Shown piece after piece: positions 54,181 to 62,009 of a stretch of 64,000 bases of DNA (its first letter is position 1; each line of letters begins with the position of its first letter). Both the position numbers and the translations under genes were made by a program. The DNA is from Thermosipho japonicus (GTDB lineage Bacteria; Thermotogota; Thermotogae; Thermotogales; Fervidobacteriaceae): NCBI RefSeq assembly GCF_014201655.1, contig NZ_JACHEX010000001.1, positions 124,001 to 188,000 on the forward strand. Direction: 5' to 3'. The notes beneath the pieces are model-generated. The model did no database searches, was not told the DNA's origin, and saw nothing but the letters and a program-made list of their open reading frames with translations.

Positions 54181-54623
54181 AAATTAGTCTAATAATAAAC
54201 GGTGAACAAAAAGACGTTGAAATAAATCCAGATGATATTTTACTCGATGTTCTAAGAAAGCTAGGCTATTATAGCGTTAGGAGAGGTTGTGACACTGGAA
54301 TGTGTGGAATTTGTACTGTATTATTTGATGGAAAACCTGTACCTTCATGTTCTGTTTTTGCTGCAAGAGCCGATGGTCATCATATAACAACAGTTGAAGG
54401 CCTCGAAGATGCAAAAGTTTTTGCCCAATATCTTGCAGAAGAAGGTGCCGACCAATGTGGTTTTTGCAGTCCTGGATTGATCGTAAATACGGTCTATCTT
54501 AAAAATAAAAACATTAAAGATAAAGAGGAAATAACAGACAAATTAATTGGTAATCTTTGCAGGTGCACTGGATATGTAGGGCAGCATAGAGCAATAGAAA
54601 AATTCTTGGGGGTGGAAAAATGA
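54177..54623 (+). CDS. Molybdenum hydroxylase [2Fe-2S] subunit, copy 2
   Basis: 148 residues with CDTGMCGICTVLFDG..C and QCGFCSPGL / CRCTGY, all eight cluster cysteines intact. It pairs with FAD copy 2 by gene order. ATGA overlap with both neighbours. Confidence 0.93.
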   Translation: MKISLIINGEQKDVEINPDDILLDVLRKLGYYSVRRGCDTGMCGICTVLFDGKPVPSCSVFAARADGHHITTVEGLEDAKVFAQYLAEEGADQCGFCSPGLIVNTVYLKNKNIKDKEEITDKLIGNLCRCTGYVGQHRAIEKFLGVEK

Positions 54624-56917
54624 AAGAAGTTACAAGAAAAATTCCAAAAAAGGATGCATTAGGTCTTCTTTTAGGAAAACCAGTATACACAGATGATCTA
54701 TCCCCCAAAGACGCACTTGTGGTAAAGATTTTAAGAAGTCCCCATGCATTTGCAAAAATAAAAAGTATTGATACATCGAAAGCAGAGAAAATTGACGGAA
54801 TAGAATGTGTTTTAACATATAAAGATCTTCCAAGAATTCCGATAACTAGAGCAGGACAGGGCTATCCTGAACCTTCACCGCATGATTGGTATATACTTGA
54901 TGAATATGTAAGATATGTTGGAGATGAAGTTGCAATTGTTGCAGGAAAAGATGAAAAGGTTGTAGAAAAAGCATTGTCAGAAATTAAAGTAGAGTATGAA
55001 ATACTAGAACCAGTTTTTGATTTTGAAAAAGCAGAAAATCATCCTTCAGTTATACATCCTGAAAAAGAAACTCATCCAATGTTTGAAATAGGGTTTGATG
55101 CTAAAAAAAACATTGCAGCATCATATGAAATGGAAATAGGCAATGTTGAAGAAGAGCTAAAAAAATGTGATGTAATAATTAACGAAAGATTTTATACACA
55201 AGCTCAAGCACATGTTGCTTTTGAACCACATACCGCTGCCTCATATATTGATATGCATGGAAGACTAGTGATTATTTCTTCAACACAGGTACCATTCCAT
55301 GTTCGAAGAATAATTGCCGAAGCATTTAATATACCAATAAAAGACATTAGAGTTGTAAAACCAAGGATTGGTGGTGGCTTTGGTGGAAAACAAGCAATAC
55401 ATGGTGAGCCTTTTGTTGCCGCTGTTACATTAAAAACAGGAAAACCTGCAAAAATTGTTTATTCTCGTCAAGAAGTTTTTGAAGCAACATATACTAGACA
55501 TCCTATGAGATATGATATTACACTAGGAGCAACAAAAGATGGAAAATTAAAGGTTATTGACATGAAAGGTTTATCAGATACCGGAGCATATGGAGAACAT
55601 GCTCTTACTACATTTATGGTTGCTGGTTCAAAAACACTTCCAATGTACAACAAAGTTGATGCTGTAAGATTTTCAGGAAAAGTTGTTTATACAAATAAAG
55701 TACCTGCTGGGGCATATAGAGGATATGGTGCAATTCAAGGAAACTTTGCACTTGAATCTGCTATTGATATCTTAGCAGAAAAACTAAATATGGATCCTGC
55801 AGAATTTAGAAAAAAGAATATGATACGTGAAGGCGAAACTTCACCAATATTCAAGATAATGGGCGAAGGCCGTGAAGGAGTAGATATGATTGTAAGAAGT
55901 TGTAAATTAAATGAATGTGTTGAAGAAGGAATGAAATTAATCAACTGGAAAGAAAAATTTCCAAGAAAAAAAATATCAGAAACTAAATTCAGAGGAATTG
56001 GAATGGCAATAGCAATGCAAGGTTCAGGTATTGCAAACATTGATATGGGATCCGCCATACTAAAATTAAACGATGATGGATCATTTAATTTATTAGTTGG
56101 AGCAACGGATCTTGGTACTGGAAGTGACACAATACTTGCCCAAATAGCAGCTGAAGTCCTTCAAGTTCCTACTGAAAATATTATTGTTTATTCATCAGAC
56201 ACCGATCTTACTCCATTTGACGTTGGCGCATATGCATCAAGTACTACATACGTCTCAGGCAATGCTGTCAAAAGGGCAGCAGAAAAAATGAAAAGAATGA
56301 TTATTAGAGAAGGAGCGCTTAAATTAGGGCTTGATGAATCAAAAGTAGACTTTGATGGAAAATATATATTGGAAAAAGATGGTAGTAAAAAAGTTGATTT
56401 AAAAGAACTTGCCACAGTTTTGTATTACACTGAAAATCAAAAGCAGCTGATTGCAGATGCTTCATATGTTGGTGAAGAATCTCCACCACCATTTATGGCA
56501 GGTTTTGCAGAAGTTGAAGTTGATATTGAAACAGGAAAAGTTAAGCTTATAAACTATGTGGCGGTAGTAGATTGTGGTGTTACAATTAATCCAAATCTTG
56601 CAAGAATTCAAGTTGAAGGTGGTCTTGTGCAGGGAATTGGTATGACATTATTTGAAGATGTTAAATACTCACCAAGTGGAAAATTATTGACAAACAATTT
56701 AATGCAATATAAAATTCCTTCAAGAAAAGATATAGGAAATATAATCGTAAAATTTGTAGAAAGTTATGAACCTACTGGTCCCTTTGGCGCTAAATCTGTT
56801 GCAGAAATTGGAATTGACACACCACCGGCTGCAATAGCTAATGCAATATATAATGCAGTCGGTGTTAGAATTACATCTCTTCCAATAACTCCTGAAAAAA
56901 TATTATCAAAATTATAA
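54620..56917 (+). CDS. Molybdopterin-binding subunit of xanthine dehydrogenase/aldehyde oxidase family
   Basis: 765 residues. Cofactor loops GGGFGGKQ and GAYRGYGAIQ, QAHVAFEPH, and the C-terminal FGAKSVAEIGIDTPPAAIANAI, with the putative catalytic Glu in AEIG, identify the large subunit. The purine-hydroxylase-like layout is the best guess; substrate uncertain. No molybdenum cofactor biosynthesis gene is in the window. Last gene before a strong terminator. Confidence 0.92.
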   Translation: MKEVTRKIPKKDALGLLLGKPVYTDDLSPKDALVVKILRSPHAFAKIKSIDTSKAEKIDGIECVLTYKDLPRIPITRAGQGYPEPSPHDWYILDEYVRYVGDEVAIVAGKDEKVVEKALSEIKVEYEILEPVFDFEKAENHPSVIHPEKETHPMFEIGFDAKKNIAASYEMEIGNVEEELKKCDVIINERFYTQAQAHVAFEPHTAASYIDMHGRLVIISSTQVPFHVRRIIAEAFNIPIKDIRVVKPRIGGGFGGKQAIHGEPFVAAVTLKTGKPAKIVYSRQEVFEATYTRHPMRYDITLGATKDGKLKVIDMKGLSDTGAYGEHALTTFMVAGSKTLPMYNKVDAVRFSGKVVYTNKVPAGAYRGYGAIQGNFALESAIDILAEKLNMDPAEFRKKNMIREGETSPIFKIMGEGREGVDMIVRSCKLNECVEEGMKLINWKEKFPRKKISETKFRGIGMAIAMQGSGIANIDMGSAILKLNDDGSFNLLVGATDLGTGSDTILAQIAAEVLQVPTENIIVYSSDTDLTPFDVGAYASSTTYVSGNAVKRAAEKMKRMIIREGALKLGLDESKVDFDGKYILEKDGSKKVDLKELATVLYYTENQKQLIADASYVGEESPPPFMAGFAEVEVDIETGKVKLINYVAVVDCGVTINPNLARIQVEGGLVQGIGMTLFEDVKYSPSGKLLTNNLMQYKIPSRKDIGNIIVKFVESYEPTGPFGAKSVAEIGIDTPPAAIANAIYNAVGVRITSLPITPEKILSKL

Positions 56918-56918
56918 A

Positions 56919-56955
56919 AGATATGCCCCGGTTTTAAAACCGGGGCATATTTTTA
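56919..56955. terminator. Bidirectional terminator
   Basis: Perfect palindrome with arms ATATGCCCCGGTTTT and AAAACCGGGGCATAT (56921-56950) and T runs on both strands, between the convergent Mo-hydroxylase and protease operons. Confidence 0.9.
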
Positions 56956-56965
56956 AATCATATTC

Positions 56966-58435
56966 TTAGTCATTTCCATAAAGTTTATTATATAAAAACA
57001 CCCAAGTTGCAACATCATTTCCATCAATTTTTCCATCTTTTGGGAATGAAATATCGAGCTTTTCTATGTCGGCACTTTCAGTACTACCAACTTTTGAAAC
57101 CAAATAATTAAAGTCATTAATGTCTACAACACCATCACCATTACAATCAACTGAATCTCCCTCATGTTTTGCTAAATCATCAAAGATGGAAACATACATG
57201 TTCCTTGAATCGATCATCCACCAACCAACTTTTTTTGCCTCATACGCTTCTTTAGAAATTGCTGGAACTACAAAGTAGCCTCCATCTCCCCAATTGTAAC
57301 CCCATGAATTTTTTACAATCCAGAACAAGCTGGTTGTATAAGTCGCATCAATTGTAGGATCATAATATGTGAATGAGCCATCTGGAAGTTCTTCATCTAG
57401 AATTGGACTTGCTTCAGGATTAATTTTTGAAGACAATATAACATCGTCAAGATCTTTTCCATCTACCCAACCTACTAGCGTAACAGCATGCCCACCTGAT
57501 TGTTCATTTGAAGTAGGAACATATATTCCACGGCTATATCCTCCAAAATCAGCTGGAACAGTATATGCAACTGAAAGAGAGCCAAAGCGTTTTAATGCAG
57601 TTTTTATCATATTAATGTATTCTTCATAACTATAACCTAATTCGTTTGCACTTACCGCATCTGGTATCATTATTGTTCTGCTAGCTTTAATTCTTGGAGC
57701 CCTGTATGCTTGTGGAGGCAATGGTATTACTTCATCTGAAACAAGATATACGTCCGAATATGGAGCAGATTCTTCCTTAATCATACCATATCTAACCATA
57801 TTATAGGATGAAAAATACACATTCCCGCCTTCCAAAGAGTTTTTATCCTGTACATACTCATATCTAGATTTTGTATATACATCCCAATCAATATTATGAT
57901 ATGCTGCCCATCTTTCTGAAAAATCAACTAAATTATCTACATTTCCTTCTTCTTTACCAAGAACTTGTACTGCATAAGCACTTTCCATCATAGCTGCTGT
58001 TGAAAATGCCCAACAACTTCCGTGCATATATTGATCTCTGATTGGTTCTAATCTATAAAAAGTCTTATCTGTTATATTTTCAGGTTTAATCAACACAAAA
58101 GAAGACATCATTAAATCATCTGTTGTTGTCATATTATCTGGAGTCACTTTTCCTTTAAAGGAGTTAAGATAATTAAATATCTTAGATTTTACCTCAGATG
58201 GTAATTCTCTTGTGCCGTTTAATTTTCTTAAAACTTCATCAACAGAAGTAACATTAAATTTTTCAAACTCTTCAAAAAACTTTTCATTAGGAGAAGCTTT
58301 CCAGAGCAAGCCAAACTTTTCAATTCTCGCATTAATATTATTTGCATATTTTTGAGCATTATCTACAAGAGCTCCAGCAAACAAAAATACTCCAAATATA
58401 GCTAATATTAAAAGCACAGAGATTTTCTTAATCAT
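56966..58435 (-). CDS. Exported papain-family cysteine protease with dockerin-like C-terminus
   Basis: 489 residues. Signal peptide at 1-21, then a helical propeptide-like region (about 25-110). The C1 peptidase domain has oxyanion Gln135 and nucleophile Cys141 in DQYMHGSCWAFS, His316 in GGHAVTLVGW and Asn376 in KNSWGYNWGDGGYF, so the triad is complete. Residues 428-489 carry DCNGDGVVDIND, a canonical dockerin calcium loop followed by a hydrophobic helix, and a second loop (DISFPKDGKIDGND) longer by two residues. The gene begins on the last base of the stop codon of the cohesin-like lipoprotein gene, suggesting the two products bind each other. Confidence 0.88.
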   Translation of the reverse strand: MIKKISVLLILAIFGVFLFAGALVDNAQKYANNINARIEKFGLLWKASPNEKFFEEFEKFNVTSVDEVLRKLNGTRELPSEVKSKIFNYLNSFKGKVTPDNMTTTDDLMMSSFVLIKPENITDKTFYRLEPIRDQYMHGSCWAFSTAAMMESAYAVQVLGKEEGNVDNLVDFSERWAAYHNIDWDVYTKSRYEYVQDKNSLEGGNVYFSSYNMVRYGMIKEESAPYSDVYLVSDEVIPLPPQAYRAPRIKASRTIMIPDAVSANELGYSYEEYINMIKTALKRFGSLSVAYTVPADFGGYSRGIYVPTSNEQSGGHAVTLVGWVDGKDLDDVILSSKINPEASPILDEELPDGSFTYYDPTIDATYTTSLFWIVKNSWGYNWGDGGYFVVPAISKEAYEAKKVGWWMIDSRNMYVSIFDDLAKHEGDSVDCNGDGVVDINDFNYLVSKVGSTESADIEKLDISFPKDGKIDGNDVATWVFLYNKLYGND

Positions 58436-59754
58436 TATTCCTCACCTCCTACGGTGATAACTACAGGTGTATGATCAAATACAAAACCATCAACGTTTGA
58501 ATTATCTTTGTCTTTTATAAGTGGATTTGGTAAATCTGGATAATTTGAATATGTGTTCCACCAACCCTCATAAACTAAGCTTGCTGAAAGTTCCCCAGTT
58601 GCATCATCGGTAACTGTAAAATTAAGAACTGCAATTGTTGATGTTGCATCTTCAGATTCATCCTTCTCATCAAAAAATGCCTTGTAAAGGACTACAGAAG
58701 AATCATTCTTATTATATGCACCTGTTTCTTTCAATCCATCCATAAATTCTGGAAATTCTACAGAATCTAACACAAGCATAGTACTATGATTTAGAGCAAA
58801 TTGCATATATCTCACATCATATATTTTTGCAAAATCAGCAACATTTTCAGCCTTTACAAAAATCTTCAAGGATTGACCTGGAGATACTGTCTTCTTTTCT
58901 GGCATAATTTTAAACACTGGCTTAGAATCAGAGTTATACCTTTCATGAATCATAAATTGACCATAAATATGTTTTGAAAAATCAGTAGTAGTAATATATC
59001 TTGAGTACCATTCGTTCAATTCAAATCCAACTTCTGCAAAAGGAACAGTTAAAGTATATCCCTTATAAGTACCTGAAACGCCAGTATATTTTAGGTTAAT
59101 TTCATTATCATTGTATTCAATATAGCTTAATTGCCAAACTGTATCATACTGATTAACTGGATTTGGAATATTATACCAAAGCTGATCATATGTAGTCGCT
59201 GTTGAAGGTAAAACTTCCCAGGTATCGTATATGTTATTTCCATCTGTATCCAACAAATTCAACCTTCTTCTTTCAAGAACTACTTCACCATTATCCATAA
59301 CTTTTTCATTCAGCTTATAAAATCTTATATATAAATCTGTCGCAGGTGAAAGAAGATCATCAGACAAATAATCATAGTAAATTTTTCCACCATCCAAGTA
59401 TACTTCCCTTTCAAGTGCCGAAACTTTGAAACTTAATTCCTTTTTAACATCACTATCTGGTAAAATAACTTCAACTTTGTATTCTCCTTCATCTTTTGCT
59501 GCAAATACATGTGTCAAACTTGTCTGTGTAGCTTCAAAATAAAGCTTTCCCTCTAAATATACCTTTATCAACGATGATGCTGGTTTCCCATCTTTTAACA
59601 TCCCTACTTCAATAATACTATTTGGAGGTAAAGCTTCTCCAGCCCCTACTGAACTTTTAATCGTATAATCGTGCGATTCAAACATGTTACCTATACAACC
59701 ACTAAGCGCTAAAAGCAAAACCAAACCTAAAATAGAAACCCACAGCTTCCTCAC
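58435..59754 (-). CDS. Lipoprotein with cohesin-like C-terminal domain
   Basis: 439 residues, GTG start after AGGAGGG. Lipoprotein signal with lipobox LSGC (Cys20). An Ig-like region at about 35-115 and a middle region of about 120-275 are not recognised. Residues 278-438 resemble a type I cohesin jelly roll: SPGQSLKIFVKAENV at the first strands, MQFALNHSTMLVLDSVEF in the centre and IAVLNFTVTDDATGELSASL at the end. The cohesin call is by eye. Together with the dockerin-like tail of the next gene it suggests a scaffold that holds the protease on a membrane. Confidence 0.75.
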   Translation of the reverse strand: MRKLWVSILGLVLLLALSGCIGNMFESHDYTIKSSVGAGEALPPNSIIEVGMLKDGKPASSLIKVYLEGKLYFEATQTSLTHVFAAKDEGEYKVEVILPDSDVKKELSFKVSALEREVYLDGGKIYYDYLSDDLLSPATDLYIRFYKLNEKVMDNGEVVLERRRLNLLDTDGNNIYDTWEVLPSTATTYDQLWYNIPNPVNQYDTVWQLSYIEYNDNEINLKYTGVSGTYKGYTLTVPFAEVGFELNEWYSRYITTTDFSKHIYGQFMIHERYNSDSKPVFKIMPEKKTVSPGQSLKIFVKAENVADFAKIYDVRYMQFALNHSTMLVLDSVEFPEFMDGLKETGAYNKNDSSVVLYKAFFDEKDESEDATSTIAVLNFTVTDDATGELSASLVYEGWWNTYSNYPDLPNPLIKDKDNSNVDGFVFDHTPVVITVGGEE

Positions 59755-59822
59755 CTTAATCCCTCCTTTAATTTAGTAGAATTTAACTCTTTACATACTT
59801 ATTACATTTCACATCGATATTA

Positions 59823-59848
59823 TAACACACTTTGCAAAATTTGTGTTA
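59823..59848. promoter_or_regulatory. Inverted repeat between divergent lipoprotein and rel genes
   Basis: TAACACA and TGTGTTA are exact reverse complements 12 bases apart, lying where promoters of both genes are expected; the minus strand has TATAAT at 59820-59825. Confidence 0.4.
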
Positions 59849-59882
59849 AAATATTTCCAAAAGAGTTAAGGAGTGTTTAAAT

Positions 59883-62009
59883 ATGATAAATACTGAAAAA
59901 TATATTAAAAATTTGGAAACGGTTCTTAAAAGAAAACTATCAGAAACCGAAAAAGAAAAAATCAAAAAAGCAGTCAAATTAGCTGAATATGGGCATGAAG
60001 GTTATTATAGAAAATCCGGTGAGCCTTTTATCACTCATCCAATTGAAGTTTCTAAAATTTTAGCATCATTAAAATTAGATATTACTACTATAATCTCTGG
60101 AATTTTACACGACACAGTTGAAGATAGTGAAGGCAAAGTCACTTTGAAAGAGATTGAAGAAATGTTTGGTAAAGAAGTTGCATTAATTGTTGATGGAGTA
60201 ACAAAGGTCAGCAAGATTAATGCACCCGTTGGAAATATCGAACAAAAGAAAAAGAGCGAAACCATACAAAAAATGCTCTTTGCAATGGCTGAAGATGTAA
60301 GAGTTATTTTTGTAAAACTTGCTGACAGACTACATAATATGCGAACAATACAATATGTAGAAGATGAGGAAAAAAAGAAATACAAAGCACTTGAAACCCT
60401 TGAAGTTTATGCTCCTATCGCACATAAACTTGGGATTCATGTAATTAAGTGGGAACTTGAAGACCTTTCTTTTAAAGTTTTATACCCAAAAGAATATTAC
60501 ATGATTAAAGAATTAGTATCTGAAAAAAAGAAAGAAAGGGAAGAAAGAACAAACGAATATGTAAATCAACTAAAACTTGCATTAAAAGAAAACAATATAA
60601 ATGCTAAAGTAGAAGGTCGTTATAAACATTATTACAGTATCTGGAAGAAGATGAAAGAAAAAAATAAAAAATTTGAAGAAATTTATGATCTTATTGGAAT
60701 AAGAGCAATTGTAAAAGACGTCCAAACCTGTTATACTGCTCTTGGAGTAGTACATCATATTTGGGTCCCACTCCCTGGAAGATTTAAAGATTACATTGCA
60801 GCTCCAAAATCAAATGGTTATAAATCAATTCATACCACAGTTGTAACACAATACGGCGAACCTTTAGAAATACAAATCAGGGACAACCAAATGCATAATG
60901 AAGCTGAATATGGATTAATTGCACATTGGATTTACAAAGAAAAAAATGTTGATCTAAAGCAAAAATGGTTACTTCAGCTTCTTGATTGGCGAAAAGAACT
61001 TCTTCAAGGAAGTACAAACCTTTCCGAGCTTAAAAATGAATTGCAACTTGATGAAGTATTTGTTCTAACTCCAAAGGGAGAAATAATTCATATGCCATTG
61101 GGATCAACCGTAATCGATTTTGCCTATGCTATTCATACTGAAATAGGGCATCACTTTGCCGGTGCAAAAGTAAATGGAAAAATTGTTCCAATAAATTACA
61201 AGCTAAAAAATGGTGATGTAGTAGAAATTTTAGTTAATAAATCAAGTAAAGGCCCAAGCCTTAGCTGGATAAAGTATGCTAAAAGTCCTAGAACAAAAGC
61301 AAAAATTAGAAGATTTTTTAGAGAAAAAGAAAAAGAAAAACTAATCGAATCTGGAAAAGATGTTATTAGAAAGTTATCAAAAAGGTTAAATATTTCCATA
61401 GAAAAATTACTCGAACATGAAAAAGTAAATGAATTTATAAAAAATCATAATTTGAGCATAGATGAATTTTATACACGCATAGGTGAAGGTAGTATTACTT
61501 TTAATGATTTACTAGAATTAATAGAAAACAAGCCCGAAAAAAATTACAAGAAAAAAACAAAAGCTTCAAAAAAAATTAAGAATGCCGTTGAAATAGATGG
61601 AATATCAAACATTGATATTCACATAGCCAAATGTTGTATGCCAGTTCCAGGTGATGAAATAGTAGGAGTAGCAAGCAGAAGAGGAATAACTATACATAGA
61701 ATTAACTGCAAAAATATTAGAGATATAGATGAAGATAGACTATTTAAAGCCAAATGGTTATCTGATGATTCAAATGAATTTTTGACGAACTTAGAAATTG
61801 AATTTGACAAAAACGAAAGACTTGCCGAAATAATGAATCTCTTAGTTTCAAAAAACATAAACGTAAAAAGTTTTAAATTAAATGAATCAAAAAATTGGAA
61901 TTCAGTCTTTGCACATCTGACAATTGTGGTAAAATCTTTAAATGAACTAAATGATATAATAAGTCAATTAAATAAAAAATCTGGAATATTGAGGGTGAGA
62001 AGAAGATGA
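59883..62009 (+). CDS. rel: Bifunctional (p)ppGpp synthetase/hydrolase
   Basis: 708 residues: HD hydrolase domain ([31 protein letters not shown]), synthetase domain ([56 protein letters not shown]), TGS ([32 protein letters not shown]), and ACT at the C-terminus. Both activities look intact, as HD residues and the synthetase motif are kept. AAGGAG before ATG. Confidence 0.96.

Follow-up and report, generated by a model that had tools for sequence, protein, structure and literature searches.

The 64,000-nucleotide stretch of Thermosipho japonicus DNA analysed here (the window) contains two overlapping genes whose sequences and predicted structures point to a lipoprotein ending in a cohesin and an exported C1 (papain-family) protease ending in a dockerin. 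We propose that the two products probably form a one-to-one cohesin-dockerin anchor; a single protease would thereby be displayed on the cell envelope, where it would serve the use of extracellular proteins. Modules of these two kinds are familiar chiefly from machines that digest cellulose. The pair recurs across much of the phylum Thermotogota and is not confined to the genome of the window.

A two-gene unit for a lipoprotein and a protease

Both open reading frames lie on the minus strand, at the coordinates given by an earlier sequence-only reading of this DNA. The layout of the locus, in window coordinates, is as follows.

54620-56917, convergent to the protease gene: xanthine dehydrogenase-type gene, named from reading the sequence
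56921-56950, unstranded: palindromic terminator-like stem of 13 pairs between the protease and dehydrogenase genes (such sites were not above chance in number in the scan)
56966-58435, minus strand: gene of the exported C1 (papain-family) protease, 489 aa, open reading frame read from the sequence
58435-59754, minus strand: gene of the lipoprotein, 439 aa, GTG start, open reading frame read from the sequence
58437-58450, minus strand: Shine-Dalgarno sequence of the protease gene, GGAGGTGAG, inside the last lipoprotein codons, read from the sequence
59883-62009, divergent from the lipoprotein gene: relA/spoT-type gene, named from reading the sequence

As had been noticed earlier, the second gene begins on the stop codon of the first: the ATG of the protease gene and the TAA of the lipoprotein gene share one base (written TAATG). 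Since the ribosome-binding site of the protease gene also lies within the lipoprotein gene, the two genes are probably translationally coupled. The lipoprotein GTG is itself preceded by a Shine-Dalgarno sequence, AAAGGAGGG. The two-gene unit stands alone on the minus strand between the convergent dehydrogenase gene and the divergent relA gene. Rfam gave no RNA element at the locus, and a promoter scan there returned matches at chance level only.

A predicted cohesin at the lipoprotein C-terminus

The lipoprotein divides into the following parts.

58438-58923, minus strand: single cohesin module, approximately residues 278-439 (AF2, Foldseek, PDB profile search, PF00963 in orthologues)
58924-59694, minus strand: N-terminal beta-rich part, residues 21-277 (AF2 secondary structure)
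59695-59697, minus strand: codon of Cys20, in the lipobox LSGC of residues 17-20 (sequence)

The lipoprotein has a signal peptide with a lipobox cysteine, and the lipobox is kept in its relatives; the cysteine assigned earlier, Cys20, was found in the LSGC of the GTG-start protein. When the AF2 model of the lipoprotein (mean pLDDT 86) was compared with known structures by Foldseek, it matched the solved cohesins 2vn5, 1g1k, 4uyp, 2jh2 and the archaeal 2xdh with a probability of 1.00, 4uyp giving a TM of 0.71 by target. A profile search of the PDB with the C-terminal domains yielded eight matches up to E=10, seven of which were cohesins (E 0.0036-0.059). PF00963 matched the orthologues in G080 (E=7e-5), the other Thermosipho genome with the pair, and in G043 (1e-4), both just under the curated cut-off, which the G013 member of the pair clearly exceeded. 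The lipoprotein of the window alone had no Pfam match, including to PF00963, and nothing useful in NCBIfam, so that detection of the cohesin needed orthologues, profile and fold. A phmmer search of the lipoprotein against the PDB gave one chance match, which was discarded.

The predicted model thus confirms a cohesin beta-sandwich fold at the lipoprotein C-terminus, and the earlier proviso that this region might have a non-cohesin fold is answered by Foldseek in favour of the cohesin. The sequence-only reading had named it a type I cohesin; the fold stands on AF2 and Foldseek, but the type I label is not adopted because the profile search ranked type II cohesins first, the single-domain matches in Foldseek being of mixed types. 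Within the lipoprotein, the cohesin is the best conserved part, with 72% identity to that of G080 versus 57% for the N-terminal part. Cohesin-fold domains that are not known to bind dockerins occur in TMEM132 (PMC6030884).

A C1 protease with a C-terminal dockerin

The protease has the following parts.

56969-57154, minus strand: dockerin module, residues 428-489 (PF00404, NF041540, AF2 helices, alignment)
57176-58087, minus strand: C1 catalytic region, residues 117-420 (PF00112, invariant columns, Foldseek matches to procathepsins)
57308-57310, 57488-57490 and 58013-58015, minus strand: codons of the catalytic residues Asn376, His316 and Cys141, respectively
58370-58435, minus strand: signal peptide, approximately residues 1-22, without a lipobox Cys (sequence; cleavage presumed after AGA)

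The catalytic region matched PF00112 (E=9e-22, 78.6 bits), and Gln135, Cys141, His316 and Asn376 were invariant in an alignment of 33 homologues, in agreement with the exported C1 protease and intact Cys141-His316-Asn376 triad recognized earlier. Foldseek matches of the AF2 model were mainly procathepsins and mature papain-family enzymes. We therefore assign the protein to Peptidase C1 (papain family) as a predicted protease.

The tail scored 19.0 bits against the dockerin family PF00404 in plain hmmscan; counting the neighbouring pieces of the frame as well raised the score to 23.1 bits (cut-off 22.9). It contains the duplicated calcium loop-helix (F-hand) unit of about 60 residues that characterizes type I dockerins. 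In the AF2 model its helices span residues 439-447, 454-460 and 472-486 (block-mean pLDDT 80-94), in dockerin order and C-terminal to the C1 domain, which speaks against the earlier proviso that the tail might fold as an internal part of the protease. Loop I is canonical (D430-CNGDGVVDIN-D441), and loop II (D461-ISFPKDGKIDGN-D474) has a two-residue insertion in an otherwise canonical loop of 12 residues; the tail thus falls short of two canonical 12-residue calcium loops because loop II is too long. At the same place in the alignment, the relatives G097/G099 have the canonical DLNGDGKVNGND and the window has DISFPKDGKIDGND, two residues longer. The loop pair described earlier is thus retained, while its "irregular" second loop resolves into a canonical loop with an insertion. 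In four further genomes (G008-G011; loci L074, L075, L076 and L091), loop II reads PKTGKIGGGS and lacks some calcium ligands while loop I is intact, hinting at single-site binding in these dockerins.

Distribution of the pair across Thermotogota

Sequence searches of 103 Thermotogota genomes found the protease in 31 and the lipoprotein in 26. Because an iterative HMM of the lipoprotein strayed to other Ig-like lipoproteins, only matches adjacent to a protease were counted. Reading of the loci gave 26 adjacent pairs in 25 of the 103 genomes, with gaps of -4 to +15 bp and a constant order, lipoprotein then protease on one strand. Dockerin-bearing proteases without a visible neighbour lie at contig ends (G009, G018, G031 and G100); wherever the upstream gene is visible, the dockerin tail goes with a cohesin neighbour. 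The whole pair is present twice in G027, duplicated as a unit. The gene-order survey proposed earlier therefore recovered conserved adjacency, but within Thermosipho and Fervidobacterium the result was patchy: the pair was present in two of the four Thermosipho genomes (that of the window and G080) and was found nowhere else in the family. In G029 (L080:8136-9306), the lipoprotein is a frameshifted pseudogene and the protease is missing except for a signal-peptide-like start.

Many orthologue tails exceed the Dockerin_1 cut-off, and nearly all Dockerin_1 matches in the phylum are tails of this protease, one per genome, with G102 and G045 as exceptions. The protease tail is the sole dockerin above the cut-off in the genome of the window. 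Two other arrangements were observed. G102 has four proteins with similar dockerin-like tails on one contig (L136), one of which is protease-like and 850 aa long. G006, G007 and G045 (L103, L108 and L109) encode large proteins with fibronectin-like repeats in which a PF00963 cohesin is followed by a dockerin-like calcium loop pair; these chains would represent a second cohesin/dockerin architecture in the phylum.

The lipoprotein and protease trees agree in their main groups, the protease tree joining the pair of the window with G043 and G100 of other families, and the distance matrices of the cohesin and the protease domain are correlated (r=0.95). Agreement of this kind is expected from linkage alone and therefore shows co-inheritance rather than binding; mirror-tree correlation was accordingly dropped as binding evidence, as linked genes correlate anyway. 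A contig search with the protease retrieved one distant deltaproteobacterial C1 protein without a dockerin or cohesin neighbour, which was set aside. The conserved neighbours that were identified encode HAD hydrolases, a pyrophosphatase and LeuRS in one genus, whereas another family has genes of the activase/dehydratase and radical-SAM types; no explanatory neighbour and no peptide-uptake or transporter gene was found conserved beside the pair among the surveyed loci.

Adjacency and co-inheritance fit any partnership, including one in which the pair cooperates without cohesin-dockerin binding, the N-terminal beta domains helping the protease to fold or inhibiting it, and the cohesin and the dockerin each binding something else, such as toga proteins or glycans. 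The approximately 250 residues of beta domains that the lipoprotein carries besides its cohesin agree with such a role. Nevertheless, we consider it improbable, since conservation is higher in the cohesin than in the N-terminal part, the dockerin-less proteases have no such lipoprotein neighbour, and further dockerins and cohesins are scarce in these genomes, which leaves few other candidate partners for either module.

Two predicted anchoring modes of the protease

A clear lipobox is lacking from the signal peptides of the dockerin-bearing proteases, of which one (the second of the two G027 copies) is ambiguous and another is truncated by a contig end, whereas all five dockerin-less paralogues in the alignment have an LSGC lipobox, and two C1-type proteins of G065, likewise without a dockerin, have a lipobox-like LSSC. 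No cohesin neighbour of these seven dockerin-less C1 proteins was found in the available flanking DNA. The dockerin-less paralogues form one clade in the protein tree, so that the contrast between lipobox and dockerin counts as one evolutionary split. This contrast reads naturally as two ways of anchoring one enzyme, either directly by lipid or via cohesin and dockerin. Each of the five paralogues lies behind a beta-propeller (PQQ-like) lipoprotein (L089, L092, L093, L094 and L095), and this lipoprotein together with the lipobox C1 protease appears to be another two-gene surface-protease cassette.

The same paralogues bear on an alternative in which the tail has no partner and belongs to the protease itself, stabilised by calcium and packed against the catalytic domain to withstand heat. 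In its favour, loop II is irregular, and the AF2 model that includes the tail has a high overall pTM of 0.86, compatible with a tail packed on the enzyme. However, five paralogues of the same protease lack the tail, and many orthologue tails are dockerins over the cut-off, with a cohesin neighbour wherever the gene upstream can be seen, which makes this explanation very unlikely.

Exchange with a fervidolysin-like cassette

By its flanking proteins (97% identical), the closest relative of the window's genome is G079. A sequence search of the genus genomes did not find the pair in G078 or G079. The DNA of G079 matches the window up to the last dehydrogenase codons (~56905) and resumes at ~59792, before relA; the slot between them (L133:934-4606, equivalent to 56918-59882 of the window) encodes a lipoprotein of 543 residues and an S8 protease of 673 residues that matches the fervidolysin prodomain and a sandwich domain. 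G078 (L134:568-4215) and G081 (L135:831-4520) have a like cassette in the same slot. No orthologue of the S8 protease was found elsewhere in the window's genome or G080, which have only a 36-40% identical subtilase. Members of both cassettes stand side by side in G026 and G027, and in G006 the S8 gene lies in the same run of genes. Given the swap between close relatives and these side-by-side members, the cohesin/dockerin pair and the S8 cassette look like exchangeable surface-protease units.

Fervidolysin is a keratinolytic subtilase, according to a reference given in PMC12042847. Feather degradation by Fervidobacterium islandicum requires direct contact with the cells and involves membrane-associated proteases (PMC13157175). 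This contact-dependent degradation and the fervidolysin-like cassette in the slot suggest, by analogy, that extracellular protein use is the most likely role of the C1 protease. There is a lesser but appreciable chance that tethering is real and that the enzyme serves not nutrition but the shedding of surface proteins or the processing of envelope or toga proteins made by the cell itself; the conserved neighbours of the pair include no gene for transport or peptide utilisation, and cellulosomal peptidases have been proposed to act in processing (PMC12484212). On the other hand, most of the family lacks the pair, near-identical genomes have a fervidolysin-family cassette in its place, and such a patchy pair, replaced in place, fits an accessory nutritional enzyme better than a housekeeping one.

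Proposed anchor and comparison with known systems

The proposed anchor builds on the computed module identities, catalytic residues, gene overlap, conserved one-to-one pairing, exclusivity of lipobox and dockerin, and slot exchange. The lipoprotein would be exported, lipidated at Cys20 and retained in the cell envelope, its free C-terminus presenting the one cohesin. The protease would be made alongside it by coupled translation and exported via an ordinary signal peptide, and its C-terminal, calcium-loaded dockerin would then be caught by the lipoprotein cohesin, a contact replacing the direct lipid anchor carried by the dockerin-less paralogues. The tethered protease would most likely cut extracellular proteins for peptide nutrition, the same role as that suggested for the fervidolysin-like cassette. 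In this scheme, we infer the binding, its calcium dependence, the exact membrane and side, and the substrate. A matching cohesin "socket" and dockerin "plug" suggest that one dedicated enzyme is probably held on the cell surface. Counting against the anchor are the failure of Pfam to detect the cohesin of the window, the longer than canonical loop II, the loss of ligands from this loop in G008-G011, and the occurrence of cohesin-fold domains, as in TMEM132, for which no dockerin binding is known.

A cellulosome has several cohesins and several dockerin enzymes; here there is one cohesin and one dockerin above the cut-off, and Pfam found no carbohydrate-binding module or carbohydrate-active enzyme in either protein. 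For these reasons the pair is not a cellulosome, and of its earlier description as cellulosome-like only the attachment principle is kept. On domain content, we place it with the non-cellulosomal cohesin/dockerin systems. The pair, with its one lipoprotein and one protease in one operon, may also have evolved in Thermotogota as a dedicated non-covalent substitute for lipidating the enzyme, a minimal and cellulosome-independent employment of the two modules, and may move as a cassette able to replace other surface-protease cassettes at a fixed chromosomal slot; to this idea we give slightly less than even chances.

Dockerin-held proteases on cell-anchored cohesins are likewise represented by the S8 protease of C. 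thermocellum (double dockerin dDoc_0689) with ScaD and by RflaF_05439 of R. flavefaciens with ScaE. Those enzymes are of S8 or NlpC/P60 type and belong to large many-enzyme cellulosomes, whereas the Thermosipho pair consists of one C1 protease and a lipoprotein in a private operon of a non-cellulosomal genome. The monovalent anchoring scaffoldin ScaE resembles the Thermosipho lipoprotein in having a single cohesin on a cell-anchored protein, but it is held by a sortase-like signal, while the lipoprotein relies on a lipobox and serves one dedicated client, the product of the adjoining gene. Cohesins and dockerins outside cellulose digestion also occur in ANME archaea, their sulfate-reducing partners, Cloacimonadota, whose dockerins include peptidases, and Archaeoglobus, whose cohesin 2xdh is among the structural matches of the lipoprotein cohesin; these systems are described as having many modules or repeated cohesins, in contrast to one cohesin, one dockerin and one enzyme in Thermosipho. 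Homologues of fervidolysin, the Fervidobacterium S8 keratinase, fill the same slot in close relatives, also as a two-gene cassette, but there the enzyme is a serine protease with its own lipobox and no dockerin, unlike the C1 enzyme with a dockerin in Thermosipho. No description of the pair was found in the literature on cohesin/dockerin with Thermotogae, Thermotogota or Mesotoga, and an earlier mention is possible.

The roles of cohesins and dockerins outside cellulosomes are largely unknown (PMC5244752). Here the partners are obvious, single and encoded in one operon, so that function is directly testable with two proteins, and protein engineering may gain a minimal, heat-stable pair of interacting modules. 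For Thermotogota, with their reported breakdown of insoluble protein on cell contact (PMC13157175), the pair suggests how surface proteolysis may be organised.
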